Shown piece by piece: positions 1 through 64,000 of a DNA stretch of 64,000 bases (its first letter is position 1; every line of letters begins with the position of its first letter). The stretch is from a virus. The stretch is taken from the IMG/VR virus record IMGVR_UViG_3300013104_000005, positions 1 through 64,000 of that record; one strand, 5' to 3'. The notes under the pieces were generated by a model, which saw only the letters and a list, made by a program, of their open reading frames with translations, was not told the DNA's origin and ran no database searches. Both the position numbers and the translations under genes were made by a program.

Positions 1-2710
1 ACCTGTCGCGCAGCGCGGCTTCGCTGGCGCCGGTCTGCTTCACCGGGTACCAGGGCGCTAGGGTGATGATGGCCTGCACGTCGTCGCCGCGGGTGAGGTT
101 CAGCTTCTCGGCGAGCGCCGGGGCGCACTGGGCGAGTAGGTCGTCCCAGGAGCCGTACGGGCCCGCCGCCATCAGCTTCGCGGCCACCTTGGGTCCGATG
201 CCCTTCAGGTTCTCGTAGCCGCCGATCAGGATGTCTTCGCAGGAGGAAAAGTTGGCCTGGGAGACTACCGGGTTGAACAGTTGCACCTGCCCTCCGCGGA
301 CCGTGAACTCCTTGATGAGCCGCTTGACGGTGAGGTCGTCGTTGTCTAGCTGTAGGTAGGCCTCGTAGAACGCGGCTGGGTAGTGAGCCTTCAGCCACAG
401 CATCCAGTAACCCACCACGCCGTAGGTCACCGCGTGGCTCTTGTTGAAGGCGTAGCCGCCGTGCGTCTGGATTGACTGCCACCAGAACTGGGCCTCGTCG
501 GGGTGCACGCCTTGCTTGGCACATCCGCCCAGGAACTTAGCGCTCCACTCCGCTCGCCACGCTTCGCCGGTGTTAGGGTTGAGGCCGAGCTTGTCTGCCG
601 CGCCCTTCCTCAGCTTGTGCACCTCCGGCCAGCTGAAGCCTGCCAGCTCTCGGGCGAGTCGCATGACCTGCTCCTGGTAGAGCAAGATGCCGTACGTCTC
701 TTCGACGACATCCGCCGCGATAGGGTGCATCGACTTCAGGTAGGTGGCGAAGGCTTCAGGGTTATACTTGTGCTTGACATAGGTATCTACCCAGTCGCCG
801 GGCCCCGGTCGGCAGAGCGCAGACGCAGCCACCAGATCGTCAAACGTGTCAAGTCCTATCACGCGCCCGACCCTGAAGGCCGCTGCACCATCCAACTGAA
901 ACACGCCTGCCAACATGCCCGACTGGGCCACCCTCAGCGCCTCCCTGTCGTCTAGCGGCAGGGCGTAGAGGTCGTCCATCGAGATGTCGGCCTTGCGGCA
1001 AGCGGTCGCTACAATGTCCAGCCCGTTAACGGCGAGGAAGTCCATCTTCAGGAAGCCGAGGTCAGCCGCGCCCCGCTTGTCAACCGCGGCGACCGGCTTC
1101 TTGTCCTGCGAGAGCACCACGCCGATGGTCTTGTCCAGCGGCTGGGACGAGATCAGCACGCCCGCCGCGTGGATAGAGGACTGTCGCACCTGGCCGATGA
1201 GCTTATCCATGATGCGGAACTGGGGGAAACGGTTGAGCACGGCCAAGGCCTGGGGGTCGGTGATCTCGGCCAACTGCTTGTCTACATCGTCGTCGTGTGA
1301 GTCTAGTGCGGCCGAGAGCGGGCCGAAGGCAGCGCGCGGGATGCCGTAAGCGAAGGCGATGTCCTGCAGCGCCTGCTTGGCTTTCAGCTGCGAGAGCGCG
1401 GCGACCTGGGAGCAGTTGGCTCGGCCGTACCTCGTGAAGATATACTCGATGGCAGCGTCTCGCCACCCGCGCTCGAAGTCAATGTCGACGTCGGGCGGGT
1501 CTGGCCTGTTCTCGTCGTAGAACCGTTCAAACGACAAGCCATGCTTGATGGGGTCGATCTCGCTGGCGCCGATGAGCCACAGCATCAGCGACCCGCCGGC
1601 TGAGCCTCGCAGCATCACCAGCGAACCCTGCTCCTTGATCCACCTTACCACGTCGTTGATGGCCAGGATGTAGTCACAGAACCCCTTCTGCTCCATCACG
1701 CTGACCTCGTGATACGCCCGCTCGGTGTAGATGTTGAGCAGTGTCTCGTCGAAGTCACGCGTCTTCAGGCCCTCGTAAACGAGGTACTTGAGGTACCGCT
1801 CAGGCGTGAGGCCCGGCGGCGTCCCTGGGAAGACTACGGTCTGTGCCCGCGGGATCTCGACGTTACACGCGTCGGCGATAACCTGGGTAGAGTCTAACGC
1901 CCGGGCGAGCTGCGCCTGGTTCAGGTTGGGGATGACCTCGAGCGCTCGCTGCGCTAGCTCGCTCTGCGTGCAGTAGTACTGGTAGCTGGGCAGCTTGAGC
2001 TCGCGAGCCGGGTCATCCAAACGCTTCCCCAGCCCCACCGTGAGCAGTAGGTCCTCTGCAGCGTGGTCATCTGGCTTCGGAAAGTGAGCGTCTGCAGTAA
2101 AGACCACCGGTAGCTTCAGCTCACACGCTACCTGCCAGAGGATGGGCGACGTGAGGTGAGAGATGGGCAGGCCAGGCTCAGGCACGATCTCGACGATGTA
2201 GTTCTCGATGTGCTGTCGCACGTCCTGCATGAACGCGAAGGCGGCCTCGGGACCCTTGCCCTCTATCAACCGCGCCGGATAGCCACCGGGGCAACCCGAG
2301 AGGACAATGAGTCCCTGTTGCCAGCGGAAGAGGGTTGTCCAGTCGATCCGAGGCTTGTAGTAAAACCCCTCCTCCCAGGATAACCGCGACAGCTTCAGCA
2401 GGTGCTCGTACCCCTGTTGAGTCTGGGCGAGGATGGTCACATGTGGGAAGGCGCTGGCTCCGATGGTCTCCTGCGTGCGCGTGCGCGCGGTCATGTCGTC
2501 TACGATGTAGAACTCGCAGCCGAAGATGGGCTTGATGTGCGCCTCTCGGCACGCTTTCTGGAAGGGCACGTGAGCGAAGACATTGCCGTGGTCGGTAACC
2601 GCGCAGGCCGTGTGACCGATGCTGGTCAAGCGCTCGACGATCTGGGTGGGCGTACCGTAGCCGTCAAGAAACGAAAAGGTAGAATGTGCGTGTAGGTGTG
2701 TGAAACTCAC
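1..2710 (-). CDS. dnaE: DNA polymerase III alpha subunit (C-family replicative polymerase), 3' end beyond window
   Basis: This is the phage replicative polymerase. The product begins with a PHP-domain signature (HLHAHSTFSFLDG, residues 5-17). It then carries RGSAGGSL, the catalytic acidic motif PDPPDVDIDF, and FNKSHA, all typical of DnaE alpha subunits. About 903 codons are present, and the C-terminus, including any OB-fold or clamp-binding tail, lies outside the window. I chose the GTG at 2710 because GGAGG sits five bases upstream and the protein then starts at the PHP motif, as in DnaE. An in-frame ATG at 2737 lacks a ribosome site. The gene ends the leftward replication block. Family assignment is secure; dependence on a host clamp loader is not visible. 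Confidence 0.95.
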   Translation of the reverse strand, partial: MSFTHLHAHSTFSFLDGYGTPTQIVERLTSIGHTACAVTDHGNVFAHVPFQKACREAHIKPIFGCEFYIVDDMTARTRTQETIGASAFPHVTILAQTQQGYEHLLKLSRLSWEEGFYYKPRIDWTTLFRWQQGLIVLSGCPGGYPARLIEGKGPEAAFAFMQDVRQHIENYIVEIVPEPGLPISHLTSPILWQVACELKLPVVFTADAHFPKPDDHAAEDLLLTVGLGKRLDDPARELKLPSYQYYCTQSELAQRALEVIPNLNQAQLARALDSTQVIADACNVEIPRAQTVVFPGTPPGLTPERYLKYLVYEGLKTRDFDETLLNIYTERAYHEVSVMEQKGFCDYILAINDVVRWIKEQGSLVMLRGSAGGSLMLWLIGASEIDPIKHGLSFERFYDENRPDPPDVDIDFERGWRDAAIEYIFTRYGRANCSQVAALSQLKAKQALQDIAFAYGIPRAAFGPLSAALDSHDDDVDKQLAEITDPQALAVLNRFPQFRIMDKLIGQVRQSSIHAAGVLISSQPLDKTIGVVLSQDKKPVAAVDKRGAADLGFLKMDFLAVNGLDIVATACRKADISMDDLYALPLDDREALRVAQSGMLAGVFQLDGAAAFRVGRVIGLDTFDDLVAASALCRPGPGDWVDTYVKHKYNPEAFATYLKSMHPIAADVVEETYGILLYQEQVMRLARELAGFSWPEVHKLRKGAADKLGLNPNTGEAWRAEWSAKFLGGCAKQGVHPDEAQFWWQSIQTHGGYAFNKSHAVTYGVVGYWMLWLKAHYPAAFYEAYLQLDNDDLTVKRLIKEFTVRGGQVQLFNPVVSQANFSSCEDILIGGYENLKGIGPKVAAKLMAAGPYGSWDDLLAQCAPALAEKLNLTRGDDVQAIITLAPWYPVKQTGASEAALRDR

Positions 2711-3758: not shown

Positions 3759-6671
3759 TTAGCTGGACGCGACACCGCTGATGTACTTCTTCAAGAAGGC
3801 CACGAAGGCCGGGGTCAGCTCGTAAGACTCTCGACGCCCGTGCTCCCGCAGCCGCAGACATCGGTTGGCGTATAGCAACTGTATCACCGCCCGGTTCAAG
3901 GTACCTGCACCCGGCACCAGGGTACCGAAGGTCCTCTCAGTAAACTCATCTAGCCTCAGCAACTCTGAGGCCAACAACACACCGTGAGGCTTCACGGTCT
4001 CGTCGAAGACCACGCGCACCTCAGCCTCGTCGCGCAGGGTCCGCTCTGCTCGGATCTTCTCCGAGTAGAGGTCATACGCTAAGGTCGGCTTATTGTACCA
4101 CGAGGCGAACAGTTGACCGGCGGTCTCGACATGCTCTGGCTTAACCAACAGCAGTTGTCCGCTGGGGTCGCACGAGAACAGCTGCGCCGCTACCGAGACC
4201 GCGACCTTAGAGACCCGCATGCGTTGGTCAGCGGGCTCGACAAACGGGATGGTCGAGTCATACTTGGTATACATCTGGCGCGTGAGCTCTATAACCGCTG
4301 CCTCGGCCTCAGGCGAGAAGATGATCTGCTCGGGCTTTCGCGAGTAGGTCCAGGCCAGGAGCGCTCGGCTAGCGTCAGCCGAGTAGGTGGGCGGGCTGGG
4401 GTAGACTATCTGGTTAATGACCTCGTTGCTCACGTCACCCTGACTGACGGCCAAGGCAAAGTCAAACCGCGCGATGTCCTCTGGCTGCGGGATCAGTCGG
4501 CTGAGCGCTTCGATGCCGGTTATGCCCAATTCTGACAGAAGTTTCCCCATGCCGGGGTTACAGAGCCAGATAGATCTAACTCGAGCTCGAAAGCTAGCAC
4601 TAGCAGCTTTGGTGATGCGGACGACTCCTTCGCTACGCGTGCTTGATAGCGCGTCGATGAGACTTGCACGGTGACTTCGTCCCCCTTGGAACTCGTCCAA
4701 GCAGACGATCCCTCCATCCTGTTGAGGATAGAGGCCAGCAAGGACGTATCTCTCTCCAGTGTTCGGGGAGCTAACCACTGATCCGAGGATGCCTGCGACA
4801 GTCTGGAGTTTGCAATCCACCAGAAGTCCAAGACTGTAAAATCCAGCCATCCGTCGGAAAGTGGCGGACTTTCCGCAACGAGTGTCCCCCAGGACAACGG
4901 CTTCAATCCAACCGCGAAGTACATCAGATCCACCAAAGCGATAGGAGAGTACGGAATGCCACACGGTACGATAAGCAAGGTGTAGGTCCTCCCTGTCGCG
5001 GATCATCGTGACCGACGCCGCGAGGTCTCGGGCCACCGCACGGAGCTTAGCCATGCACGTCTCGTCCGATTGTGGCTGGAAGATCTCGAGCATCTCTTGC
5101 ACTGGCGGGGTGATCTCAAAGTTGTCAAACGTGGTGGCGCTGGGCGTGAAACGGTCGATGAGAAAGATGGCCGCCTGTGTCTTGGGCTCGGGGTAAACGA
5201 AGCCCTCGAGCACGTAGTCACGGTTCTCCTCCAGGTGGCTAGGCCCATTGAGCATGATGAGCGCCTCGCGGCGCTGGCGTTCGTTGTCTTGCGTGCCGTC
5301 GCCGATCTCTGCGGCAGACGCGTTGAGGATAACGGGCTCGATGTTCACAGCCCGCTCTGTCTCTGCCGTGACGTCTGGGCACATCGTAGGGATGCCGTGC
5401 CGAGCTTTGTAGACGTCGAGCTGCTCCTTCTGCGTGCTGCGGATGAGCTTCAGCGTGTCACCCGCTCGGGGGTCGTGGTTGAACCGCGCGTTCCCGTGAA
5501 ACTCGGTCCGCATCGGACAGCGAGGACAATAGGGGTGACCCCCAGCTGGGCAGGTCAGCACGATGGTGGTCGGCAGGATGAATCGCTTCTCCGACCGCGC
5601 GGTGAGCCGAGCTGCGAAGGCCAGGCGCCTGCGGAGGTTGTCCGATGAGAGTGCGGTAGAGAATGACTGCGTGTCTGCTGGCTGGTCGAAGACGTCGTGC
5701 GGGGTCTCTACCTGCGCAGCTGTCTGCAGTAGCTCGCTGAACATGCGCTGCTGCTGCTCCAGCGTCACGCCCTCGTTCCGTAGGTAGAGTAGGTAGTCGC
5801 TGATGTCAGCGTTCCTGGGGCGGTTGGGCCACTGCGGAAGCGTGACTATCCTAACTTCGGTGGCCGACGGCCGCAGGATGCGGATGGCTTCGCCGACTGC
5901 CTCCTGGCCCTTGGTGTCGATGTCGAAGAGGACGTAGATGATCTTGCCGCGGTGCCACAAACCTTCAGGTACCGGCATCGACGCGCCCATCATGCCGCTG
6001 ATGCCGGTGACGCCGATAGACCGCAGCGAGATAGCGTCGGCCTCACCCTCTACCAGCACCAACACCGGCTCTTCATAAGCAGACACCGGCCACAAGAAGT
6101 TACTGGTAAGGTGCGGCAACAGCCACAGTATCTTGGGTTGCCCACCCGGGCGATACATCCTGCAGTTAACGATGTGGCGGTGTCGATCGTAGACTGGGAT
6201 GACGAACCGGTCGGTCTCTGCATCGTAGCCGATGTTGAGGTGATAGAGTTGCGCCGGGTCCCATGGCTTGTACTGCTGTAGGTGGTACTGCAGCGACTGG
6301 TTCTGCCAGAGAGTGTCTCGACACGCAGCGACCCAGCCCAGGTCGATGGCCTGCACCAGGCCCAGCTCTTGCATCAGCTGGCGTTCAGCAGCGCCGTAAT
6401 CGGGGATAGCTAGACCGCGGTCGTCGAACTCGGTCGCGTCCATCAGCGCTCGGAACATGACATAGTCGCCGCCACGGTCCGAGTTGAAGCAGTGCCACAC
6501 GCCCTCGATGATGTTTACCGAGAAGGAGGGCCGCGTGTCAATTACATCCGGGAAGGGCGACCTCGCCGCCCGCTCTCCACGTGCACTAGGGCGAGAGAGA
6601 CCCTGTACGTGTTGTTCATAAAGCTGTTCCCACCCAATCCGCTCTAAAGCCTGCCTTAGTTCTCGGTTCAT
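3759..6671 (-). CDS. Primase (degenerate CHC2 + TOPRIM) fused to MCM-like AAA+ helicase
   Basis: A 970-residue replication protein. Residues about 36-75 match the DnaG CHC2 region (RPSFSVN, then HCFNSDRGGDY) but keep only one of the zinc cysteines. A TOPRIM domain follows at about 202-285 (VEGEADA; DID at 250-252). Residues 374-392 hold a second Cys/His cluster (CPAGGHPYCPRC), followed by a beta-rich stretch where MCM proteins have an OB fold. The ATPase has Walker A GDTRCGKS (595-602), Walker B IVCLDEF, an EGVVRITKAAS segment like the MCM helix-2 insert, Asn705 as sensor 1, and SRLIPQPEDIARFD like the MCM arginine-finger SRFD. The C-terminus looks like a winged helix. It probably primes and unwinds at the fork for the adjacent DnaE. 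The MCM rather than DnaB type ATPase is unusual. Confidence 0.85.
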   Translation of the reverse strand: MNRELRQALERIGWEQLYEQHVQGLSRPSARGERAARSPFPDVIDTRPSFSVNIIEGVWHCFNSDRGGDYVMFRALMDATEFDDRGLAIPDYGAAERQLMQELGLVQAIDLGWVAACRDTLWQNQSLQYHLQQYKPWDPAQLYHLNIGYDAETDRFVIPVYDRHRHIVNCRMYRPGGQPKILWLLPHLTSNFLWPVSAYEEPVLVLVEGEADAISLRSIGVTGISGMMGASMPVPEGLWHRGKIIYVLFDIDTKGQEAVGEAIRILRPSATEVRIVTLPQWPNRPRNADISDYLLYLRNEGVTLEQQQRMFSELLQTAAQVETPHDVFDQPADTQSFSTALSSDNLRRRLAFAARLTARSEKRFILPTTIVLTCPAGGHPYCPRCPMRTEFHGNARFNHDPRAGDTLKLIRSTQKEQLDVYKARHGIPTMCPDVTAETERAVNIEPVILNASAAEIGDGTQDNERQRREALIMLNGPSHLEENRDYVLEGFVYPEPKTQAAIFLIDRFTPSATTFDNFEITPPVQEMLEIFQPQSDETCMAKLRAVARDLAASVTMIRDREDLHLAYRTVWHSVLSYRFGGSDVLRGWIEAVVLGDTRCGKSATFRRMAGFYSLGLLVDCKLQTVAGILGSVVSSPNTGERYVLAGLYPQQDGGIVCLDEFQGGRSHRASLIDALSSTRSEGVVRITKAASASFRARVRSIWLCNPGMGKLLSELGITGIEALSRLIPQPEDIARFDFALAVSQGDVSNEVINQIVYPSPPTYSADASRALLAWTYSRKPEQIIFSPEAEAAVIELTRQMYTKYDSTIPFVEPADQRMRVSKVAVSVAAQLFSCDPSGQLLLVKPEHVETAGQLFASWYNKPTLAYDLYSEKIRAERTLRDEAEVRVVFDETVKPHGVLLASELLRLDEFTERTFGTLVPGAGTLNRAVIQLLYANRCLRLREHGRRESYELTPAFVAFLKKYISGVASS

Positions 6672-11527: not shown

Positions 11528-11944
11528 TTACAGGAAGATCTTTGAGCCTACCTCAAAGCTTTTTTGGTTGAACTTGTTCTTTACCGCCGTGCCGAGGTCG
11601 ATGCCTGCCCTGGCCGCGAGTAAGTCGGCGTAGAGCACCAGGTCGGCGAGCTCCTCGGCCAAGCTGCTCAGCAGCTCTTCTCGGTCATCCTCACCGGGCT
11701 TGATGACTCCGGGCGCCTGTCCCTGGGGGTCCTCTAAGCGGCGCAGCTTCTTCACGAAGTTAAGCGCCTCGCCGCACTCGCCGCCCATCGCGGTAGCCCA
11801 GTCAGTCAAGGTCCAGCGCTCGAGCTTGTGGAACGTCTGCTCGCAGCGGCCTACGTTGGCCTGACGTAACTTGCCGAAGTTGATAGAGTCCTCTTCGTCT
11901 GCTTCCCAGTACACCTGACCCCAGCTTGAGAGTTTATACGGCAT
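11528..11944 (-). CDS. MazG-like all-alpha NTP pyrophosphohydrolase
   Basis: 138 residues with the ExxE (GGECGEAL) and ExxD (EELADLVLY) metal-binding motifs of all-alpha NTP pyrophosphatases, ending in a helix and K-FNQKS as in MazG. The likely role is hydrolysis of a nucleotide, either nucleotide-pool control or (p)ppGpp modulation. The ATG at 11944 follows AGGAAG; an alternative at 11974 overlaps the upstream gene. Substrate is not predictable from sequence. Confidence 0.8.
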   Translation of the reverse strand: MPYKLSSWGQVYWEADEEDSINFGKLRQANVGRCEQTFHKLERWTLTDWATAMGGECGEALNFVKKLRRLEDPQGQAPGVIKPGEDDREELLSSLAEELADLVLYADLLAARAGIDLGTAVKNKFNQKSFEVGSKIFL

Positions 11945-11963
11945 GACCCACTTCCTCTCTATG

Positions 11964-12464
11964 TCAGTCCACATGTTGATAAGACACCAGCCACGCCACG
12001 TCCCGACGGACCGTAGCGAGTAGGAACGCTCGAGCGTTAGACCTGAGCGTTAACACGCCGAACTGACCCTGGTCTAGCTGCTTGACGGTGGCCGGTGCGG
12101 CGTTGAGCCACAGCCGGTAGGTCCAGGTAGGGTGGTTATACAGGAAGGTCACGAGCTTCATCCACTGCATGTATTCGAGCAGGTGGCACGACCAGGGAAA
12201 CACCAGCGACAGGTAGTGTCCTGGCTGCTGGGTGTCTTCGCACTGATAGTCTTGGTGAGCCCACTGGTCGTCGGTGCCGTTGATGACCTCGTGCACGTAG
12301 CGGTCGGCAGCGGGAGCGAAGGGAGGCAAGACACGAGGCCTCACAAAGTCCTCGGTCTCGCCTACCATGTACCAGCCTCGCTGTAGGCCCACCGCGATGT
12401 CATCCCACGCCACCCGCTGGGCCAACCTGCCCAGGCTGTGACTGTCGAGGTTGGCGAGGTTCAT
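11964..12464 (-). CDS. Hypothetical protein
   Basis: 166 residues, rich in aromatic residues (WAHQDYQCED, FPWSCHLLEYMQWMKLVTF). No domain is recognised. The start overlaps the stop of the ribbon-helix-helix gene (ATGA). The density of overlapping starts supports it as a real gene in this operon. Confidence 0.65.
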   Translation of the reverse strand: MNLANLDSHSLGRLAQRVAWDDIAVGLQRGWYMVGETEDFVRPRVLPPFAPAADRYVHEVINGTDDQWAHQDYQCEDTQQPGHYLSLVFPWSCHLLEYMQWMKLVTFLYNHPTWTYRLWLNAAPATVKQLDQGQFGVLTLRSNARAFLLATVRRDVAWLVSYQHVD

Positions 12465-14012: not shown

Positions 14013-14090
14013 GGTCTGTCTTTCTGTAGACTGGGGCCTATTCCCCATAGCGTGACTTGCGCCACGCTCGCACGAGTTGAACGCCGTCCA

Positions 14091-14180
14091 CTACTGCCTA
14101 CTACTGCCTACTACTGCCTACTACTGCCTACTACTGCCTACTACTGCCTACTACTGCCTACTACTGCCTACTACTGTTTA
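14091..14180. repeat. 10-bp tandem repeat, 8 exact copies plus one degenerate
   Basis: The unit CTACTGCCTA is repeated eight times without error from 14091 to 14170. A ninth copy (CTACTGTTTA) runs into the stop codon of the next gene. The period is close to one helical turn, so any bound protein would meet every copy on the same face. It fills the gap between two leftward genes. It could be an iteron-like binding array or a slippage-prone minisatellite. Confidence 0.95.
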
Positions 14181-14708
14181 CCGCCTGTACTCACCGTAGA
14201 GCTTCAGCCACTCGGCCAGACCGGCCATCAGGCCCATCGCGATGTCCTGGTCGATGACCCAGAGCTTCTCACCACCCGCTCCCAGCAGCCACCACTGCTC
14301 TACCGTGTCCGGCTCGTTCATCAGGTTGATTGAGAGGTCAGTGCCCGGCACCAACACCTCAGCGATACAGTGGTCATAGCGGTGGGGGTCGGCCACCTGC
14401 CCCGGCTTGGTAGTCGCTTGCATCAGCATAAATAAGGCCTGCTCTAGCGCTGGGTTAAGTTGCCGCTTGGCCTTGCGGTCGTGCTGCGCCTCGGTGCTAA
14501 AGGCCATCTGCATCGCGTTATTCGCTCGAGCGTTGATGGCAGCGGTGACATCGCTGTGGTCGTCGAGCTGCTCGAACTCATAGTCCATGGCGAAGATCAG
14601 GCAGGTGTCAGGCTTATAGTCCTCTTGCCTGACGTCCCTGGCTTTTTGCTCAGAATCTAGAACCCGTAACACCTCGCCGTTCCTGTCGACGATAAACCAT
14701 CGCTTCAT
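14178..14708 (-). CDS. Hypothetical protein
   Basis: 176 residues with an N-terminal strand-rich segment (RWFIVDRNGEVLRVLDSEQK) and a helical middle. AAGGAG lies five bases before the ATG. The stop codon lies in the last degenerate unit of the tandem repeat. An extended -10-like TGATAGAAT lies about 35 bases upstream without a clear -35. No family recognised. Confidence 0.7.
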   Translation of the reverse strand: MKRWFIVDRNGEVLRVLDSEQKARDVRQEDYKPDTCLIFAMDYEFEQLDDHSDVTAAINARANNAMQMAFSTEAQHDRKAKRQLNPALEQALFMLMQATTKPGQVADPHRYDHCIAEVLVPGTDLSINLMNEPDTVEQWWLLGAGGEKLWVIDQDIAMGLMAGLAEWLKLYGEYRR

Positions 14709-17809: not shown

Positions 17810-18124
17810 TTAGGTACCTGACTCTTCAGTAGGGATACAGATGACCCACTGAGGGTAGGTAGGATTATTCACTCGAGTGATGGCCGCGGTGTGCAGCGGG
17901 TAATGGCGCACCACGTAGTTGACCGCTTCACTGAGGTTGCCAAAGTCTCGCTCGATGTGTGCTATCGTGTTCACGTCCGCAAGCTTGTGGTCTTTGCCCG
18001 TCGCTGCGTTGTTGAGGACACGGCTCTTGGCTCCTAGCACCTGTTGTACCAGGGTCGAGCGCACGTTGTCAAAGGTCGCGGTGATCTCGTGGCTCAGGAT
18101 GATGCCGCTCTGACTAAACCTCAT
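17810..18124 (-). CDS. Hypothetical protein
   Basis: 104 residues from ATG 18124, which overlaps the pentapeptide-repeat gene by 11 bases. No ribosome site is evident, so it probably depends on coupled translation; a longer frame starts at 18178 inside that gene. No domain recognised. Confidence 0.55.
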   Translation of the reverse strand: MRFSQSGIILSHEITATFDNVRSTLVQQVLGAKSRVLNNAATGKDHKLADVNTIAHIERDFGNLSEAVNYVVRHYPLHTAAITRVNNPTYPQWVICIPTEESGT

Positions 18125-18989
18125 GGCTTGACCGCATGGCACTGATGCCAGTGACGCCGACAAGTCCGAGCTCGTCAAGTGCTTGGTTAAGCAGCGGGCG
18201 AGATGCCTCGTCCTTGCAGTCTTGCTCGTCGTAGGAGTCTCGCATCGCCATGTACGCTACTGTCTGCGGGTGAGCCTTGCACCACTGCTGCATGGACTGC
18301 TGGGTAAGTGTAGGCTGCGAGAGCGACTTAAACCGCAGACTGTGGTAAAACGCCCACTGTACCAGGAGGTGTTGCTGTTCGGGGCCCGGCTCTAGCTGGT
18401 CGATGATCCGAGAGAAGGCCTCTACCGCTCGCTCGACGTACTCGTGACCCTTGACTGGGGGTAGCAGCTTGTAGAACGGCTGGTCGCGCCGGCACTCGAG
18501 GAACTCGTAAAGGATACCGTCGAGGTGCGCGCCTGTAAAGTCCGCTCCGTGCACGCAAGACCGGCTGATGTTGGCCCGCTCCAGGTGGGCGTAGGTGAAG
18601 TCAGTCTGCGTGAGGTCGGCGCCCGTAAACCGGGCTCCGCTTAACCAGGCGTAAGCGAAGTTAGCGTGGGTGAGGTCGGCCCTGTCGAAGTTGGCCAGGT
18701 TGGCATCTGCACCGTGAAAGATGGTGTTGTGGCAGGTGGCCCCTGACAGGTAGGCGCTGTTGAGGTGAGCCCCAGTAAACTGGGCGCCTGTGAGGTCAGC
18801 GCGCATGAGGTTGCCGTGTGCTAACTGACAGTTGGTCAGGTTCCGAAACGACAGGTCACGAGCGTGTAGGTCTACGCTGTGGAGGTCTATCACGAAGTCT
18901 GGCTCCGCGTCCCTCATGTCTTTCCAGCGATCTGCGTCGTGTAGCAGCACCTGTAGCAGGCTGCTACGGTCTAGCTGTGATAACTTCAC
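18114..18989 (-). CDS. Pentapeptide-repeat protein
   Basis: 291 residues. About residues 40-155 contain consecutive A(D/N)LxX units (LMRADLTGAQFTGAHLNSAY, ANLANFDRADLTHANFAYA, RFTGADLTQTDFTYAHLERA), which fold as a right-handed beta-helix. A helical C-terminal part follows, ending near LNQALDELGLVG. Some family members mimic DNA and inhibit gyrase, but nothing here proves that. GTG start at 18989 is chosen because GAGGAG lies five bases upstream; the longer open frame to 19193 is not repeat-like. Confidence 0.8.
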   Translation of the reverse strand: MKLSQLDRSSLLQVLLHDADRWKDMRDAEPDFVIDLHSVDLHARDLSFRNLTNCQLAHGNLMRADLTGAQFTGAHLNSAYLSGATCHNTIFHGADANLANFDRADLTHANFAYAWLSGARFTGADLTQTDFTYAHLERANISRSCVHGADFTGAHLDGILYEFLECRRDQPFYKLLPPVKGHEYVERAVEAFSRIIDQLEPGPEQQHLLVQWAFYHSLRFKSLSQPTLTQQSMQQWCKAHPQTVAYMAMRDSYDEQDCKDEASRPLLNQALDELGLVGVTGISAMRSSHEV

Positions 18990-19084
18990 GGTAACTCCTC
19001 GTGAGTCTCTAACTGCCACGTGATTGTGGCATACCGCCTGCCCGACTCGAACGGGCTGCCCACTGACTGGGGAGGCAGTGTCAC

Positions 19085-19582
19085 TTACCCGCCGGGGTGC
19101 TCGCAAGCGATGTTGATAGCGTGAGCGCCGGGTGTCGGGTCGTCCCAGCGGATCCTGGTGCCGCACTCGCGGCAAAGTTGGCACGACTGGCACACCCGCA
19201 TCGGAACCAGTCCACGAGGGCCCATCGACACAAGCGCCTCGCTTAGTAGGTTACCTGGTAGGGGAAGCGTACCGCACAACTCGCACCATTCGTACGCGAC
19301 CTTCCAGACTGGAGCGATGACAAAACCTGTGTGAATACGACGACCGGTGTCCTCAAACAGGCCAGATGCCAGCGCAGCGTAGGCGAGTGGAATGTTCTCC
19401 ATCCAGACCTTAGCAAAGAACTCACCCGGCCACAGCGTGTGGGCCTGGTCAGGGATGTTGACGGAGAGGGTAGCAAGTGGCTCGTGCTCGGTATTCTCTA
19501 ACTTCACCGCTAAGTTGCTGTCAGGGTACTTAGTGATGACGACCCTAACAACGCCGTCAGGCGTGTTAAACCTTGCTCTCAT
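19085..19582 (-). CDS. DUF4313-like protein with C-terminal zinc cluster
   Basis: 165 residues. Residues about 24-95 (LAVKLENTEHEPLATLSVNI, GEFFAKVWMENI, LFEDTGRRIHTGFVIAPVW) match the DUF4313 pattern known from mobile elements and phages. The C-terminus adds CELCG and CQSCQLCRECG, a likely zinc ribbon not usual in that family. Function is unknown. The start follows a structured 460-base gap that may form its leader. Confidence 0.65.
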   Translation of the reverse strand: MRARFNTPDGVVRVVITKYPDSNLAVKLENTEHEPLATLSVNIPDQAHTLWPGEFFAKVWMENIPLAYAALASGLFEDTGRRIHTGFVIAPVWKVAYEWCELCGTLPLPGNLLSEALVSMGPRGLVPMRVCQSCQLCRECGTRIRWDDPTPGAHAINIACEHPGG

Positions 19583-56210: not shown

Positions 56211-56633
56211 CTACAGGCAAGTAGGCCAGCCGATGTAAGCTTTCAGTTCGGTGTTGTACTGCAGCTCAAACGAGTCCATGTCACATAGCCGCATCCCCAG
56301 GGGCATGAGGTTAGTGCTGTTAGGCACCCGATAAGCCCTGACCACAGCGTTAGCTTGCCAGTAAAATACGGCCAGCGCGATGGCCCCAGTGTTAGCGAAG
56401 ACTCGCAGCCACTGCTGTTGGTGTGGCTCAAAGAGGTCCCAGGGCATGTAGCCCTCGGTGGTAAGGCTAGACCTGATGACCTTAGCCTCCAAAGCCACCC
56501 CCAGTCCCCTCGCCGAACACCCGCCGATGTCGAAGGGCTTGCGCCCTCCGGCATCGTCGCGGATGCGGTAAAGCGGCCAGCCGCAGCGCAGCGCACCCGC
56601 TACTAGGGGCGGGTAGAGGCTGGCCTCCTTCAC
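56211..56633 (-). CDS. PD-(D/E)XK nuclease, Holliday-junction-resolvase-like
   Basis: 140 residues. KPFDIGGCSARGL supplies the catalytic Asp and GVALEAKVIR the E-x-K; WDLFEPHQQQWLRVFANTGA matches the helix after the active site in RecU-type resolvases. It probably resolves branched DNA before packaging. GTG start overlaps the upstream stop (GTGA). Its TAG immediately abuts the fibre gene stop. Confidence 0.8.
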   Translation of the reverse strand: MKEASLYPPLVAGALRCGWPLYRIRDDAGGRKPFDIGGCSARGLGVALEAKVIRSSLTTEGYMPWDLFEPHQQQWLRVFANTGAIALAVFYWQANAVVRAYRVPNSTNLMPLGMRLCDMDSFELQYNTELKAYIGWPTCL

Positions 56634-56941
56634 GTCAGGCTCACGTTAGTGCTGAGCTCGACGTGCATGATGTTCCTCGACGAGACCACCAGCGTCTTTT
56701 GAGGTCCCAGCGTGATGATGAGGAAGTCACCCTCGGCGGTTATCACGTCGTGGAAGTAGAGCGGGTCACAGACGCCGTCAAAGTCACTGCGCCGCTCGTT
56801 GGTGTAACGAACGTGGACCATGAACCTCATAGACTCAGCAGTATGCGCGCGGTTGACGGTCTTGACCTGGGCCTCGCTGAGCGGTGGTTCGGGCACCTGA
56901 GCGCTGGGCGTAGGTGCAGCTACAGTCGGGAGTGAAGGCAT
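56630..56941 (-). CDS. Hypothetical protein
   Basis: 103 residues from ATG 56941, which overlaps the stop of the ThyA-like gene (TAATG). The N-terminus is Pro-rich; the rest is beta-rich (MRFMVHVRYTNERRSDFDGV, DFLIITLGPQKTLVVSSRNI). No family recognised. Coupled to the modification gene upstream. Confidence 0.6.
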   Translation of the reverse strand: MPSLPTVAAPTPSAQVPEPPLSEAQVKTVNRAHTAESMRFMVHVRYTNERRSDFDGVCDPLYFHDVITAEGDFLIITLGPQKTLVVSSRNIMHVELSTNVSLT

Positions 56942-57876
56942 TATCGTAGTCTCTCTTTCCAGTTCCACCTGATGAGGTTACACCACTTTCGCCAGAACGT
57001 GTGCTCTGCCTCGAGTGGCGAGTAAAAGTTACGCCAGTGGTTCACGTTCATGCCGGCGATGCCGCTCACGATGATGTGGCTGAGCAGGTCATCGAGGATC
57101 TGTCCGGCGCCGACCTTCACCTGTTCCCAGGTCCAGAGGTTGGGCAACTCTGGCGGGATGCGTAGTTGAGGGATCTCGACATCTACCCAACGCTCTTGGC
57201 CGATGTGCGCCAGCTGCACCGGGTTATTGTCATAGCTGTGAAGTGACCCCGCGATGTGGGTATAAGTGCCTACCTGCATGTTCAGTAAGCTCGCCATCGT
57301 GCACTGGATGGCGCAGAAGGCCGCGACATCGTAGGGCAGGCCCAGCTTGATGTCGTTCGACCGCATGTTCACCACTAGGCTTAAGCCTTGCGACCCCTTG
57401 AGAAACTGCATGCTGAGGGTGCAGGGTACATCGAGTGAAGGCGCCGGCAGGCCAGGTGACCAGATAGTAGCCACCGCTTGCCGTGAGTCTGGGTCACGCT
57501 TGAGCAGTGCGTGGATGTCTCCCAGCGAATGCGCTAGCCGCGGACCATAGGCCCCGTCAAATGTGCCGGTGACCGGGTTAACGAACTTCTTCATCTCGCT
57601 GTTGACCGCGATGAGTAGCTCTGCGTGCTTGCGGTCACCGCCGTGGCCAGCCATATACTGCAGTGTCTCTACTGCCCAGAAGCGATAGTTAAGCCTGCGT
57701 GACGCGCCGGAGTATAGCCCTAGTTCGGCTGACGACAGGTGAAAGATGCCGGGCCGCACCTCCTTACACGGCAGGTTGCGAGGCTTGAACGGTTCGCCCC
57801 ACCTATCAACAAACTCGACAAGCCGCGGGTAGAGTTCTGCCATCGACTCGCAACTTACCGTAGATAAACCCCACAT
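56941..57876 (-). CDS. ThyA-fold enzyme, predicted dCMP (hydroxy)methylase
   Basis: 311 residues with the thymidylate-synthase core: catalytic Cys152 in VPCTLSMQF, RSND (172-175), GLPYDVAAF, and His213/Tyr215 in AGSLHSYDNN. Known thymidylate synthases have Asn at the GLPFN position, which pairs with dUMP; here it is Asp183, as in T4 dCMP hydroxymethylase, where Asp selects dCMP. With a separate ThyX nearby, I infer that this enzyme makes 5-hydroxymethyl-dCMP (or 5-methyl-dCMP). Start at 57876 with GGGAGG eight bases upstream. The ThyA fold is sure; specificity is an inference. Confidence 0.75.
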   Translation of the reverse strand: MWGLSTVSCESMAELYPRLVEFVDRWGEPFKPRNLPCKEVRPGIFHLSSAELGLYSGASRRLNYRFWAVETLQYMAGHGGDRKHAELLIAVNSEMKKFVNPVTGTFDGAYGPRLAHSLGDIHALLKRDPDSRQAVATIWSPGLPAPSLDVPCTLSMQFLKGSQGLSLVVNMRSNDIKLGLPYDVAAFCAIQCTMASLLNMQVGTYTHIAGSLHSYDNNPVQLAHIGQERWVDVEIPQLRIPPELPNLWTWEQVKVGAGQILDDLLSHIIVSGIAGMNVNHWRNFYSPLEAEHTFWRKWCNLIRWNWKERLR

Positions 57877-57880
57877 TGTT

Positions 57881-58339
57881 TTAACCTCCCAGGTCGCCGG
57901 CGAAGAAGTCGATGTGCGTGAGCTGCACCACCTCGATAAGGTGTGGGTTGTCATCCAGGAACGCGTCTCGATCAGGGTCGACGTACTCTCGACAGTAGTA
58001 GAGGCGCATGACCCCCAGCGTGATGGCTGCTTTCAAGCAGGTTAAGCACGACTGGTCGGTGCAGTACAGGGTGTCAGCTTCGCCTGTGCGGGAGAGCAGG
58101 GCATTGAGCTCTGCGTGTATTGTGCGGATGCAGTGAGGTTTGGGACGGTCATGTGCTAGCAAGCAACCTGCGTCTTCGCAGTGGGGTGTGCCTGGCAGCG
58201 AGCCATTGTAGCCAGTAGCCACGATCTTGTTGCGGTAGGTGAGTACCGCGCCTACCTTGCGCCGCGGGCAGGTCGACCGAGCGGAGGCTAACCACGCGAT
58301 CTTCATAAAGTACTGTGAGGTACAGATCCTGCTCATCAT
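57881..58339 (-). CDS. dCMP deaminase
   Basis: 152 residues with the zinc-site motifs HAE (75-77) and CLTC (98-101), plus a second Cys/His group CEDAGC...H seen in T4-like dCMP deaminases. It converts dCMP to dUMP, feeding the ThyX reaction and setting the C/T precursor ratio. GGAGGG lies immediately before two tandem ATG codons, and the second (58336) has the better spacing. It precedes the ThyA-like gene by four bases. Confidence 0.92.
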   Translation of the reverse strand: MMSRICTSQYFMKIAWLASARSTCPRRKVGAVLTYRNKIVATGYNGSLPGTPHCEDAGCLLAHDRPKPHCIRTIHAELNALLSRTGEADTLYCTDQSCLTCLKAAITLGVMRLYYCREYVDPDRDAFLDDNPHLIEVVQLTHIDFFAGDLGG

Positions 58340-59336: not shown

Positions 59337-60443
59337 TCAGTCTTTGAGGCCCATGACCTCGCGCATCCTGGTGGCTGCCCACCAAGCGTTGTTTACCGGG
59401 ATCCCCTGCGCTATCAAGTGGGGAAATAACCGGTGAAACTTCCAGCTGTCCGGGTACCCCATGAGCCTGGCCATCTCGCGCATGGTTAAGAAGCGATGGT
59501 CGATGGGGTGGATGTACTTGTAAGAGCCGATGATGGTAGCGCCAGCCTCGTGCCAAGGGATGATGTAGGGGCGGTGGCACTGCATGCCGCCAAACTCTCG
59601 AGGACAGTCTTCCCAGATGAGCTGTTCTACCTGCAGCAGCTCTCGCTGCGCCACCCTGTCGCCGTTGTCGGCTCGCTCCTGGATCTTGCGGCGGTCCTTC
59701 GGCGTCAGAAACCTGCTGCTCAGTCGACCGATGTTCTGCTTCACAAGCGCGTTGAGTTCAACCGTCTTGATAGGCTCGTACCAGTGCTGCGTGACTACTT
59801 CGCCGGTCGTGGACCACACGGGATCTGGTGAGGGATCGACACCTACCAAGTTTGCCAGGTATGGTCCCACTGGGCAGAGGCTCCTATCCCTACTGGAGGG
59901 TAGGTCGTCGAGTGGGATCAGCTCGGGGTGCTTGGGCACATCGAGGGACGCGCACAAAAAAGCGCGGCGGCGGATCTGCGGCGTGTGGATCTGGTAAGAG
60001 TACATTATCCACGTCCACCAGTAATAGTCATGCTGGTCCAGCACATCGGTCAGGTCTGTGAGCAGGCAACCTACTCGCTCGGTGGCCAGCTGGAATGCGT
60101 TCTCCATCAGGATCATCCGTGGACGCGCTTTCACCACCATTCGTATCCACTGCCGCATACAGTTGTTAGTAGGCGACGAGAGGCGAGAGGCGGTCATAGC
60201 CGACAACCCGCCGCAGGGCGGGTTGCCATAGATGAGGTCGACCCCGCTCGCGACGCGAGCGAGGTGGTCTGAGGTATGGTCAAGTTCAAACACCTGGTGT
60301 CTCAGCTCGGGTCTGTTAAGGTCCCAAGTTGCAGCGTTCTTTGAGTATCCCGGCGTCTCCCAGACGGCCTTCAGGTCGAAGCCAGCGGCCTCGACCCCGA
60401 GCGACATCGATCCGGCACCGATTAGGTAAGCAATGGCGTCCAC
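59337..60443 (-). CDS. C5-cytosine DNA methyltransferase homologue
   Basis: 368 residues. Motif I is IGAGSMSLGVEAAGFDLKAV, motif IV GNPPCGGLSA with the nucleophile Cys77, motif VI ENA (normally ENV), motif VIII QIRRR (156-160), and motifs IX-X LTMREMARLMGYPDSW with a late NAWW. All catalytic positions seem present, so activity is likely: transfer of a methyl group to cytosine C5, or a variant reaction. In a cluster that may already change C at the nucleotide level, its role is puzzling. GTG start with AAAGGA. Confidence 0.85.
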   Translation of the reverse strand: MDAIAYLIGAGSMSLGVEAAGFDLKAVWETPGYSKNAATWDLNRPELRHQVFELDHTSDHLARVASGVDLIYGNPPCGGLSAMTASRLSSPTNNCMRQWIRMVVKARPRMILMENAFQLATERVGCLLTDLTDVLDQHDYYWWTWIMYSYQIHTPQIRRRAFLCASLDVPKHPELIPLDDLPSSRDRSLCPVGPYLANLVGVDPSPDPVWSTTGEVVTQHWYEPIKTVELNALVKQNIGRLSSRFLTPKDRRKIQERADNGDRVAQRELLQVEQLIWEDCPREFGGMQCHRPYIIPWHEAGATIIGSYKYIHPIDHRFLTMREMARLMGYPDSWKFHRLFPHLIAQGIPVNNAWWAATRMREVMGLKD

Positions 60444-60475: not shown

Positions 60476-61444
60476 CTATATCAGCGGAGGTGCTTGTTTG
60501 TCACAGTAAGGCTCGAGCGCCTGTTTTAGCTGCCCGGCCCAATCGTGGAACTCGCCGTGCTTAAACCGGCGAGCGTACTGGGGATGCGTCAGGTGGTACA
60601 CCTGCCAGGGGCCCGCTACGTCGCGCATCGCGCTGCGCGCCTGGGTGCCCAGGCAGATGACCCGCGACGGGTTGAGGTTAGCGATGGTCACCTCCAGGTC
60701 GTACGCTGACGCGAAGACGTTCACGTTGGTGATGTAGCCCAACCACCACCGGAGGTAGATCGCGTCGATGGCCTTCCACAACCACTCCGACGAGGGACCT
60801 CGGTCGAAGGGCCCGCCGGGTAAGTCGTCCTTCGTGTCGGTGATGCTCGCAGCCTCCCCCAGGATCACGAACTGGGGTGAGGTATTACCCCAGCCGATCC
60901 GCGCCGGCGGCAGGTAGGAGATGGCCTTTGCGATCGTTACCTGTCGCTCGACAATCTGTCGCAGCGTCTGTGTAGGCTTGCCGTCAGTGAGGTTGATGAG
61001 CTGCGGCAGCTTGTACCTCTCACACCACAGGTGCGAGCTGTACATTCGCCCCGGCCTCAGGAGGGAGTCGTAGAGGTCGACGAGGGCCGGCACCTGGGCA
61101 AAGTCAGGCTCGTCAGGTGTCCAGCGCTCCCTCATACGCTCTACCGAGTCGTGTAGGTAGATGACCTGCGTGCCGTAGGTCAAGAGCATGAGCTCAATCA
61201 TGCGCCACTCGTGCGGCGTGAGGTGTACCTCGTCTCGGTAAGCGTAGCCATAGGCGATCTGACTCCAGTGCGCGCGGTCCAGGATGGTCTGGGGCCGGGC
61301 ATTCTCGAGCATCCAGCCAAAATAGCTGAACGGCTTCACCGGAGGCTTTATCTGGTGCCGGTACACCCAGCCGGGCATCAGGGCTCGCAGCGCACTGCAC
61401 ACCACGCCCTTGCCACACTTGTCGATGCCCTCAACTAAGATCAT
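60476..61444 (-). CDS. dNMP kinase fused to uracil-DNA-glycosylase-like domain
   Basis: 322 residues. The N-terminal half is a thymidylate-kinase-type P-loop enzyme (EGIDKCGKGVV, 5-15; LDRAHWSQIAYG, 55-66). Residues about 185-310 match the UDG superfamily: FVILGEAAS, GPFDRGPSSEWLWKAI, YITNVNVF, LNPSRVICLGTQARSAM and LTHPQY. The kinase may raise the modified dCMP to the diphosphate, as T4 gp1 does; the second domain could excise uracil or recognise bases. Start 61444 has AAGGAGG. Both domain calls are good; the joint role is inferred. Confidence 0.75.
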   Translation of the reverse strand: MILVEGIDKCGKGVVCSALRALMPGWVYRHQIKPPVKPFSYFGWMLENARPQTILDRAHWSQIAYGYAYRDEVHLTPHEWRMIELMLLTYGTQVIYLHDSVERMRERWTPDEPDFAQVPALVDLYDSLLRPGRMYSSHLWCERYKLPQLINLTDGKPTQTLRQIVERQVTIAKAISYLPPARIGWGNTSPQFVILGEAASITDTKDDLPGGPFDRGPSSEWLWKAIDAIYLRWWLGYITNVNVFASAYDLEVTIANLNPSRVICLGTQARSAMRDVAGPWQVYHLTHPQYARRFKHGEFHDWAGQLKQALEPYCDKQAPPLI

Positions 61445-61458
61445 GTCCTGCCTCCTTG

Positions 61459-62676
61459 TTACGCGCGGTCGGACCACTGCGGAAGCTTCGCCGCTAGCAG
61501 TAGGTCCTTGTAGGGGTTGAAGTGCCAGGGTCCTCGGATGGGCCCCTCCATCAGTCGCTTTCCTGCCTCATAGAGCGACATGGAGTACCGCTCGTGCGAT
61601 GTGTAGTAGCTAAGCGCCGCACGCTGATACTCAAAATACTCTCGCCAGAGATCCGGGTGCCGCACCAGGATGTCTAGTTTCTCGCGCACCTGGTCGCCGT
61701 TCACGACCATAAACCACTCTCCCAGCAAGGCCGTGGCTATCTGCAACTTGGCGTCGCAGAAGGCGATAGCCCCGCCCCTCACGATCTCTGAGAGGCGGCC
61801 GGTGATAAGCTGGATCTTGTAGGCGTCAAACCGAGCGATGTTCAGTCCGGCGCCGTGTTGATAGTAGAGTTGCTCGAGGTTAAAGTCCTTGTTAGGCACG
61901 AAGGGCCCGTGGACCACTCCCCCAGCAGCACCAAACGTGCCGATGAAGTCGTCCTTGATGCGGCCGTAGTGATGCATCCGCTCGTTAGTAAAGAACTGGA
62001 GCATGGTGTCACGTCGTCGGTAGTCGTTGCCGACGTACGCGCACTCCAGGTAATCGTGGTCAAGCGACTGGGGTAGCTGGCGGTACGACAGCTGGGGGAT
62101 GATGGTCACCACCTGCTGAGCGTAGCGACGGCCAAAGTGATAGGTCGCCACCACGATCCGCTCTTGCCAGTTTGGCAACCACTTCTTGATCTTCGAGATG
62201 GTGGTGCCAGCGGTAAGGTCTTGGTCGATGACGATGAGCCCCAGGTTGGGGTTCTTCTCCCAGCAAGAGCGCGCTACCTCGTTGACGCCGTAGGCCCCAC
62301 CCATCTGGCCGGTAGCTTCGACGATCAGGATGTCAAGCTCTGGGTAGTCGTACTTGAAGAGCTCCTTCGGAGGTCGGTTCTCGCTGAGCCAGATGTGGCG
62401 GTTAGTGGTGGGTGCGGTGTTGACATACCGCATCATCTTTTGGAAGTTGTCGCCGTAGTGCACCACAGACGCGTGCACCTCGAGCTCATCTGGCTCGGCG
62501 GTAGCTGGGTTGGGAATGTGACAGTCCGGCACCAGGCACTTGAGGGGCATCCAGTGGACCGGCTCGCCGGTCCACTTGCGCAGGTCAAGCATCGCCGGAT
62601 AGTACTGGTCACACGAGCCGATGGGCGCGATGAGGTCGCGCCGTAACGAAGTATAGCCGGTCCACCCTATCCTCAC
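61459..62676 (-). CDS. GT-B glycosyltransferase, T4 beta-glucosyltransferase-like (putative DNA-modifying)
   Basis: 405 residues. The C-terminal half follows the T4 beta-glucosyltransferase order: AYVGNDYRRRDTMLQFF (compare IYGGSFRSGQRESKMVEF), HYGRIK, GPFVPNKDF, GLNIARFDAY, TGRLSE (Arg294, Glu297, like the UDP-binding R-x-x-E), GGAIAF, then VREKLDILVRHPDLWREYFE. The N-terminal domain has a Rossmann-like start (MRIGWTGYTS). I infer transfer of a sugar to hydroxymethylcytosine in DNA. Resemblance is by eye; a different sugar or acceptor is possible. GTG start, one base after the dUTPase gene. Confidence 0.6.
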   Translation of the reverse strand: MRIGWTGYTSLRRDLIAPIGSCDQYYPAMLDLRKWTGEPVHWMPLKCLVPDCHIPNPATAEPDELEVHASVVHYGDNFQKMMRYVNTAPTTNRHIWLSENRPPKELFKYDYPELDILIVEATGQMGGAYGVNEVARSCWEKNPNLGLIVIDQDLTAGTTISKIKKWLPNWQERIVVATYHFGRRYAQQVVTIIPQLSYRQLPQSLDHDYLECAYVGNDYRRRDTMLQFFTNERMHHYGRIKDDFIGTFGAAGGVVHGPFVPNKDFNLEQLYYQHGAGLNIARFDAYKIQLITGRLSEIVRGGAIAFCDAKLQIATALLGEWFMVVNGDQVREKLDILVRHPDLWREYFEYQRAALSYYTSHERYSMSLYEAGKRLMEGPIRGPWHFNPYKDLLLAAKLPQWSDRA

Positions 62677-62677
62677 C

Positions 62678-63274
62678 TTAATAGTCTCCTGACTCAGAGC
62701 GGCCGTGGTTTATCGAGTTCTTGGCCACGTATTCGTTGTAGATAGTGTCGGCGTCCATGTTCAACAGCATGAAGATGTTCACCAAGAAGTGCAAGATGTC
62801 GATGGCTTCGTCGCGGATCTCGTCGATGTGCTCACGACTGCCCACTACGAAGGTAGGGTTACCCTTGTCCACCTTGTTGCCCAGCGACCTGCTCCAATGC
62901 TTCCAGGCGAACCAGTCTTCCAACTCTACCACCTCGTGCATGATGGGCCGCGTATGCTTGAGCACCTCGTTCTGCAGGTCTGTTAATTCACCCGGGGTAA
63001 GGGGTACCTCTTCATCACTGCTGCAGTCGATGGTGTCCCAGTCAGTGACGTTGGTCGGTTGACCGAGCTTTACTTGCAGGTCATGTTGTTGCTCGATGAT
63101 GCTCTCGAGCATGTCTGGCCTGTACTCGGTAGGCTGTGAGAGGTAGAACACGGCGTCCTTCAACACGTCTGCTGGTACCTCGCCTGGCTCCATCAGGTAG
63201 CACTTGAGGTTATCGGTTACTTGCTCGCGCGTGAAAGTCGGCGTCATCGAACGTGGCTCTGTACTCATCTGCAT
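62678..63274 (-). CDS. All-alpha dUTPase/dCTPase-type NTP pyrophosphatase
   Basis: 198 residues with ExxE (HEVVELEDW, Glu114/Glu117), WKHWS, and ExxD with HF (DEAIDILHF, Glu156/Asp159), then YVAKNSINHGRSESGDY, the layout of dimeric dUTPases and T4 gp56 dCTPase-dUTPase. It would remove dUTP and perhaps dCTP, keeping unmodified cytosine out of DNA. Starts at ATG 63274 or 63268 (better spacing to AAAGG). It overlaps the thyX 3' end by about 60 bases, which is unusually long here. Confidence 0.75.
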   Translation of the reverse strand: MQMSTEPRSMTPTFTREQVTDNLKCYLMEPGEVPADVLKDAVFYLSQPTEYRPDMLESIIEQQHDLQVKLGQPTNVTDWDTIDCSSDEEVPLTPGELTDLQNEVLKHTRPIMHEVVELEDWFAWKHWSRSLGNKVDKGNPTFVVGSREHIDEIRDEAIDILHFLVNIFMLLNMDADTIYNEYVAKNSINHGRSESGDY

Positions 63275-64000
63275 AGTCCTTTCTGTGCTGTGACCAGCCG
63301 CTGAAGTTACCTTGGGGCGCGGTTAGGACAGCTGGTTGAGGTCCTTCGTAGTGAACTGGGGCGGTGATGTAGGCTCGAGACGGGTGCTCGAGCGGTGACA
63401 TGTGACGCGGGTCCTTGCCGCATGAGTACTCGCTCATCACGCCGTTGGGAGGATAGACTAACTTGCCGTAAACGCCCAGCCATTCTTCGATGGTCCTCGC
63501 GTCGTTTTGGCGGAGGTAAGAGATGGCAGCGCACCGCGCTGAGCTGACCTTTACCAGGTCTGCGCACAGCAGGTCTGAACAGCGCTCGGGGTCGGTGATG
63601 TAGGGCAAGTGCCAGAGGCGCTTGCACCAGTGCACGTCATTGTAGCTAAACGGCCTTCGTTGGTAAGGCCAACACCGGATAATTGGCCGTGAGCTACGCT
63701 GGGCAGAGTACATGTCACCCGCTAACTTTTGGATCTCGGGCGTAGCCGCACCATGCCATCGCTGGTTGAAGAAGTTAGCGTAGTTAGTAGAGGAGCATAC
63801 CACCGTGATGAACTGCCACGGTCCCAGTAAGCGGTTCACGGTCTCCTTAGCGACGTCGTACTCGTTAGCCAGGATCTCGGCTGCGGTACACGCGTTATCA
63901 CGCTGCACCAACCACTGGTGCAACGCGGCTCGCTGGTCCTCTGGGCTTAGGTCTTCGCCTGGCACCATGCCCCTGGCGTTGTGTCGCCACCGCAGGGGGA
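63210..64000 (-). CDS. thyX: Flavin-dependent thymidylate synthase (ThyX family), 5' end beyond window
   Basis: The frame is open to the window edge; an internal ATG at 63968 is probably not the start because the upstream sequence (RWRHNARGM) already matches the family. Recognisable parts: VNRLLGPWQFITVV, NYANFFNQRW, ATPEIQKLA, VSSARCAAISYLR, SPLEHPSRAY and GNFSGWSQHRK. It makes dTMP from dUMP using folate and flavin. This leaves the ThyA-fold enzyme free for another substrate. First visible gene of the leftward modification block. Confidence 0.88.
   Translation of the reverse strand, partial: PLRWRHNARGMVPGEDLSPEDQRAALHQWLVQRDNACTAAEILANEYDVAKETVNRLLGPWQFITVVCSSTNYANFFNQRWHGAATPEIQKLAGDMYSAQRSSRPIIRCWPYQRRPFSYNDVHWCKRLWHLPYITDPERCSDLLCADLVKVSSARCAAISYLRQNDARTIEEWLGVYGKLVYPPNGVMSEYSCGKDPRHMSPLEHPSRAYITAPVHYEGPQPAVLTAPQGNFSGWSQHRKDYADEYRATFDDADFHARASNR

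Follow-up and report, generated by a model that had tools for sequence, protein, structure and literature searches.

The gene at 56941-57876 on the minus strand of the window (the whole stretch of DNA that was analyzed, the first 64,000 bases of a virus record 68,463 bases long) very probably encodes a deoxycytidylate 5-hydroxymethylase, a ThyA homologue of 311 amino acids whose predicted product is 5-hydroxymethyl-dCMP. Judging by the active-site residues, the relatives, and the neighboring genes, 5-hydroxymethyl-dCMP would let the virus build DNA with disguised cytosine, a trick familiar from phage T4 and widespread in phages. The enzyme belongs to a known kind, and Asp at ThyA position 177 has already been published as a marker of cytosine modification. 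The freshest part of the analysis, and the one most worth following, is a fusion of a kinase with a UdgX-like domain, which is encoded in the same operon.

The record probably represents the whole phage genome, since it ends in a 123-base direct terminal repeat (window 1-123; record 68341-68463), with the gene for DNA polymerase III alpha spanning the two ends. No DNA-level relatives of the window were found in INPHARED, and a scan of genome contigs returned 30 weak relatives across many phyla, and no host for the phage. Elsewhere in the window, a 970-amino-acid protein (3759-6671, minus strand) that matches a CHC2 zinc finger, a Toprim domain, and an MCM P-loop domain is a fusion of a primase and an MCM-type helicase in a tailed phage; a pentapeptide-repeat protein (PF00805, 1.9e-24) lies at 18114-19193 on the minus strand; and a short tandem repeat at 14052-14333 on the plus strand would read TTAYYCLLLP repeatedly, in an open reading frame opposite to the genes.

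The ThyA homologue and its substrate

The gene reads from an ATG at 57876 to a stop at 56941, and its start lies 4 bases after the stop of a dCMP deaminase gene; an alternative in-frame ATG upstream, at 57954, overlaps the deaminase gene and is a less likely start. The earlier note had named the product a ThyA homologue, and the match to Pfam Thymidylat_synt (64.2 bits; cut-off 24.3) agrees. Both the alignment and an AlphaFold model built from 20 window and IMG/VR sequences (pLDDT 80.5, pTM 0.85) show the thymidylate synthase superfamily fold with the catalytic Cys, Glu, Tyr, Arg, and His. The key residues are E70, Y110, R132, D149, C152, T153, R172-S-N-D175, D183, and H213, and the numbers that the note had given for Cys152, R172-S173-N174-D175, the motif GLPYD (179-183), and His213 are all right. 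It had also placed an Asp at the position that discriminates dUMP from dCMP. Alignment with E. coli ThyA and T4 gp42 bears this out: in the MAFFT alignment Asp183 shares its column with ThyA Asn177 and gp42 Asp179, D149, T153, C152, E70, and H213 likewise align with T4 gp42, and phmmer aligns Asp183 with the Asp in GAVSDVFSF of MilA (MilA Asp186).

Relatives of the enzyme were sought in IMG/VR, where a single-sequence pattern scan found nothing, a 9-sequence alignment (A1) was too divergent, and a 4-sequence alignment (A2) worked, yielding at least 544 relatives, of which 80 were inspected. Asp183 is invariant in nine aligned phage proteins (that of the window included) and in all 80 inspected relatives, so it does not reflect chance or an assembly change, and an Asp at the 149 position is found in 79 of the 80. 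Because Asp183 is itself part of one of the two search patterns, invariance is claimed from the 34 loci (23 distinct sequences) that were retrieved solely by the pattern that leaves it out, and all 34 carry both Asp residues. With hundreds of phage relatives sharing the Asp, the enzyme is far from rare. That the protein is catalytically dead or regulatory is hardly credible: activity is a prediction and the adjoining kinase has an odd Walker A motif, but every catalytic residue is kept and is invariant in the relatives.

The rule by which Asp or Asn sets the preference for dCMP or dUMP has been published for T4 gp42 and MilA: Asp186 is common to MilA, BcmA, and T4 CH, uracil enzymes carry Asn, and dCMP activity is lost in T4 D179N (PMC6400193, PMC5175136). 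In addition, Asn-to-Asp mutants of thymidylate synthase make 5-methyl-dCMP, and Asp177 is enriched in metagenomic phage contigs with modified cytosine (PMC8670742). Position 147 is also among the top two ranked positions in that metagenome study; it is His in ThyA, and Thr both in the window enzyme (Thr153) and in T4 gp42. Under the published rule, the preference for dCMP over dUMP that the earlier note had suggested is supported, as Asp183 predicts. With regard to the sugar, a change of A176S/K133R in MilA shifts its preference from CMP to dCMP, and these two positions correspond to Ser173 and Arg132 in the window enzyme. From the Asp183 rule and this correspondence with the MilA mutants, the substrate is predicted to be dCMP, a deoxynucleotide.

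Two other substrates were weighed. MilA, the CMP hydroxymethylase of Streptomyces (mildiomycin), is the best solved match to the window enzyme by sequence profile (1e-44 against the PDB; best thymidylate synthase 9e-28) and by fold, taking the top seven PDB matches of the AlphaFold model before any thymidylate synthase, and it too has the Asp (Asp186) and an Asp three residues before the Cys. This closeness would fit a ribonucleotide hydroxymethylase that acts on CMP for a nucleoside or RNA product; we consider this most improbable, since the Ala176 and Lys133 that set the CMP preference of MilA are Ser and Arg here, and the gene is placed among the deoxynucleotide genes of a phage. A working thymidylate synthase that uses dUMP and tolerates the Asp is also very unlikely. 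Such an enzyme would be at home in the superfamily, and the dCMP deaminase of the operon makes dUMP, but the protein fails all NCBIfam equivalog cut-offs for thymidylate synthase (best 59.5 of 327, and 51.8 of 108.35), not only Asn177 but also Leu143 and His147 have been replaced, and the same operon encodes a ThyX-like protein.

Hydroxymethylation and its rivals

On the side of the product, hydroxymethylation has as its signature an Asp (or Glu) at the third position ahead of the catalytic Cys, and T4 D145N is dead (T4 structure paper, PMC6400193). The window enzyme has this signature as D149-V-P-C152. Read together, ThyA positions 143/147/177 form a code, a rule based on few biochemically tested enzymes, in which the window enzyme is D/T/D (D149/T153/D183), the same as T4 gp42 and nearly all of the window relatives; the exceptions are Mycobacterium phage Zenon (D/T/N) and one of the inspected IMG/VR loci, L022 (N/T/D). 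Thymidylate synthases, here E. coli ThyA and that of phage XaC1, are L/H/N, the dUMP hydroxymethylase group (SPO1 gp29, M6, Ab18, and a Kuttervirus) is D/N/N, and DLP4, AXL1, and PaMx74, phages of the Xp12 group, are N/P/D. A dUMP hydroxymethylase of the SPO1 gp29 type was considered and rejected: SPO1 gp29 and phage M6 share the Asp at 143 but differ in having Asn at 177 and 147, and this type requires Asn at 177, where the window enzyme has Asp183. The D/T/D code of the window enzyme recurs in the pyrimidine hydroxymethylase or thymidylate synthase genes of ctIqW946, ct3Et533, ctUtU524, DSL-LC01, GodonK, PW916, and Enterococcus phage 9183, and of the IMG/VR loci L016, L017, and L018, with a kinase and a dCMP deaminase adjoining in most and gene sets that vary; identity to the window enzyme is 26-34% for the phages in alignment A1 and 42-50% for L016-L018.

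With the three diagnostic columns left out of the alignment, the tree groups the window enzyme with L016, L017, and L018 (support 99), and the enzymes with N/P/D (support 100) and those with D/N/N (98) stand apart from it; the exact place of T4 gp42 is unsure because of its very long branch. The window enzyme resembles T4 gp42 in the Asp at 177, the Asp at 143, the Thr at 147, and the catalytic Cys, Tyr, and Glu, and differs from it in a long C-terminal extension, in identity (about 32%, over about 95 amino acids only), and in having Gly for Ser94. The equivalent of T4 Ser94, a Ser or Thr two residues before the active-site Tyr, is Gly108 in the window enzyme. It is the one published signature residue that the enzyme lacks, and on its account we place the enzyme among the hydroxymethylases but in a different clade from T4 gp42. 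Since the position is Gly in 79 of the 80 relatives and Ala in SPO1 gp29, which is annotated as a dUMP hydroxymethylase, and since T4 S94A retains about 25% activity, we do not treat Ser94 as obligatory or defining.

The rival that comes nearest is an Xp12-type dCMP methylase, which would make 5-methyl-dCMP for full replacement by 5-methylcytosine, with dihydrofolate as by-product. The Xp12 group is represented here by DLP4, AXL1, and PaMx74 as proxies for Xp12's own sequence; AXL1 is close kin of Xp12, in which all cytosines are 5-methylcytosine, and its DNA shows similar resistance to digestion. Like the window enzyme, these Xp12/Bosavirus/Pamexvirus thymidylate synthase homologues have Asp at 177 and adjoining genes for an NTP pyrophosphatase and a dCMP deaminase. 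The 5-methyl-dCMP made by the Asn-to-Asp mutants would speak for a methylase as well, as would the C5-methyltransferase homologue in the operon, a possible use of 5-methylcytosine. On the other hand, the proxies have Asn and Pro at 143 and 147, where the window enzyme has Asp and Thr, they form a clade of their own, and they have a DHFR gene adjoining the thymidylate synthase-like gene. The methylase reaction yields dihydrofolate and needs DHFR, while a hydroxymethylase returns tetrahydrofolate, as judged from T4 dCH and thymidylate synthase; the ThyX reaction also returns tetrahydrofolate. A PF00186 search detected no DHFR in the window phage, nor in the contigs of 29 relatives, many of them possibly fragments, with DLP4 positive as a control. 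A methylase is thus unlikely. The earlier note had left the choice between a methyl and a hydroxymethyl product open; Asp149 and Thr153, the clade, the match in fold, and a DHFR that goes undetected all favor hydroxymethyl.

If the enzyme is a hydroxymethylase, Cys152 would attack C6 of a dCMP held by Asp183, Arg132/Arg172, and Ser173, and methylene-tetrahydrofolate, activated with the help of Glu70, would add its one-carbon unit at C5. Asp149 is proposed to steer water onto the exocyclic methylene, so that the products would be 5-hydroxymethyl-dCMP and tetrahydrofolate rather than a methylated nucleotide and dihydrofolate.

The operon as a putative hydroxymethylcytosine pathway

The ThyA homologue lies in a tight operon of co-directional genes, all on the minus strand, with overlaps or small gaps between them. 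In order, these are the genes for a ThyX-like protein, a pyrophosphatase, a glycosyltransferase-like protein, a kinase-UDG fusion, and a C5-methyltransferase homologue, two small open reading frames, the deaminase, the ThyA homologue, and two more small open reading frames. We read the operon as a T4-like hydroxymethylcytosine (hmC) pathway, and beyond the identity of the genes we infer every step. An all-alpha NTP pyrophosphatase of the dUTPase_2/MazG-like kind (62678-63274; PF08761, 30.8 bits against a cut-off of 22.9; phrog_18650, 8e-14) is a candidate for the dCTPase/dUTPase function that gp56 has in T4, and would destroy dCTP and so supply dCMP. A second, weak MazG-like pyrophosphatase candidate lies at 11528-11974, also on the minus strand. 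After hydroxymethylation, the TMK-like kinase domain of the fusion (60476-61477), a candidate 5-hydroxymethyl-dCMP kinase, would phosphorylate hm-dCMP, and the PolIII-type polymerase of the phage would draw on hm-dCTP completed by the NDP kinase of the host.

A glycosyltransferase-like protein of 405 amino acids (61459-62676), of the GT-B C-terminal type, is a candidate hmC decorator that may add a sugar to hmC. It has no detectable relatives in phages (INPHARED), IMG/VR pattern scans, or 12 related records, and its role is suggested by its position and by a sub-threshold PF13524 match (23.1 bits; cut-off 25). For thymidine, the dCMP deaminase (57881-58339; PF00383, 2e-16; phrog_174, 3.4e-36), which converts dCMP to dUMP, and the ThyX-like protein would together supply dTMP. 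The ThyX-like protein (327 amino acids; 63210-64000 in the window, continuing to 64193 of the record) scores 23.6 against PF02511 (cut-off 24.8), 24.7 of 87.9 against TIGR02170, and 1.8e-54 against PHROG_85, 'thymidylate synthase'. The earlier note had argued from a separate ThyX in the same block. A ThyX-like protein is indeed encoded in the operon, but ThyX is weak evidence in general because a Thy1 match is found in only one of the 29 relatives' contigs, and on the same count it was rejected as a general co-marker of D/T/D enzymes.

A C5-cytosine DNA methyltransferase homologue (59337-60443; PF00145, 3.8e-24), with intact NPPC and QIRRR motifs, shares the operon with the predicted hmC-making enzyme. 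Locus L017 repeats much of the operon (pyrophosphatase, kinase, deaminase, ThyA homologue, and C5-methyltransferase); its methyltransferase (L017:8861-9991) adjoins the ThyA homologue and is 45% identical to that of the window, although a pattern scan of IMG/VR for the C5-methyltransferase came back empty. Of the small open reading frames at the end of the operon, one (56630-56968) overlaps the end of the ThyA homologue gene and matches no family, and the other (56211-56633), also without a known family, has counterparts in L016 and L018, where they likewise follow the ThyA homologue.

In T4, the analogous partner genes are gp56 dCTPase, gp1 dNMP kinase, and the glucosyltransferases; those of the window stand in one operon. 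The window phage differs from T4 in the fusion of its kinase to a UdgX-like domain, in encoding a ThyX-like protein where T4 has a phage ThyA (td), and in its C5-methyltransferase homologue. The residues, the homology, the clade, the operon order, and the lack of a detectable DHFR support the hydroxymethylase reading, under which flux would run from dCMP toward hm-dCTP and hmC would be expected in the virion.

A kinase fused to a UdgX-like domain

An AlphaFold model of the fusion protein (pLDDT 82) was searched with Foldseek: one half matches UdgX and family-4-like uracil-DNA glycosylases, and the other half YorR and thymidylate or deoxynucleoside kinases. Full-length homologues are encoded by DSL-LC01 and ctUtU524, and homologues also lie upstream of the ThyA homologue at L005:6009-7004 and in many of the loci L020-L095. 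Across 71 of the 80 inspected loci (24 of 30 clusters at 80% identity), a TMK-like kinase gene ends no more than 100 bases upstream of the ThyA homologue start. The upstream kinase is at least 300 amino acids long in 40 loci (17 of the 30 clusters), 38 of which (15 clusters) have a UDG-like motif, HPQ(Y/H/W)xxRF; the fusion thus recurs in about 17 of the 30 clusters. Aligned fusion members retain an acidic residue within their first glycine motif, and most retain the His of HPQ, which L021 and L023 lack. The Walker A motif of the window kinase (residues 17-24) reads GIDKCGKG, in which Gly replaces the Ser or Thr of the GK[ST] found in aligned relatives. This makes the activity of the window kinase uncertain, and it may be impaired or altered.

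Full-text literature searches, largely of papers outside subscription journals, returned no description of a kinase-UdgX-like fusion. We tentatively suggest, as an idea more likely to fail than to hold, that cytosine-modifying phages carry an undescribed two-domain enzyme of this kind, encoded right next to the dCMP hydroxymethylase. Its glycosylase domain would edit the pyrimidine or sense it, perhaps by rejecting dUMP or unmodified dCMP or by removing unmodified bases, so that only hydroxymethylated dCMP would enter the DNA.

The operon would bring all steps of a T4-like hmC pathway together in one tight block, in an unrelated tailed phage whose polymerase is of the PolIII type. The three-residue reading of positions 143/147/177 tells apart thymidylate synthase, dUMP hydroxymethylase, dCMP hydroxymethylase, and dCMP methylase, and is useful because so many genes of these kinds in phages have 'thymidylate synthase' as their sole annotation. 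The recurrence of the kinase-UdgX-like fusion beside such genes leads to a testable prediction on how phages may enforce base replacement.
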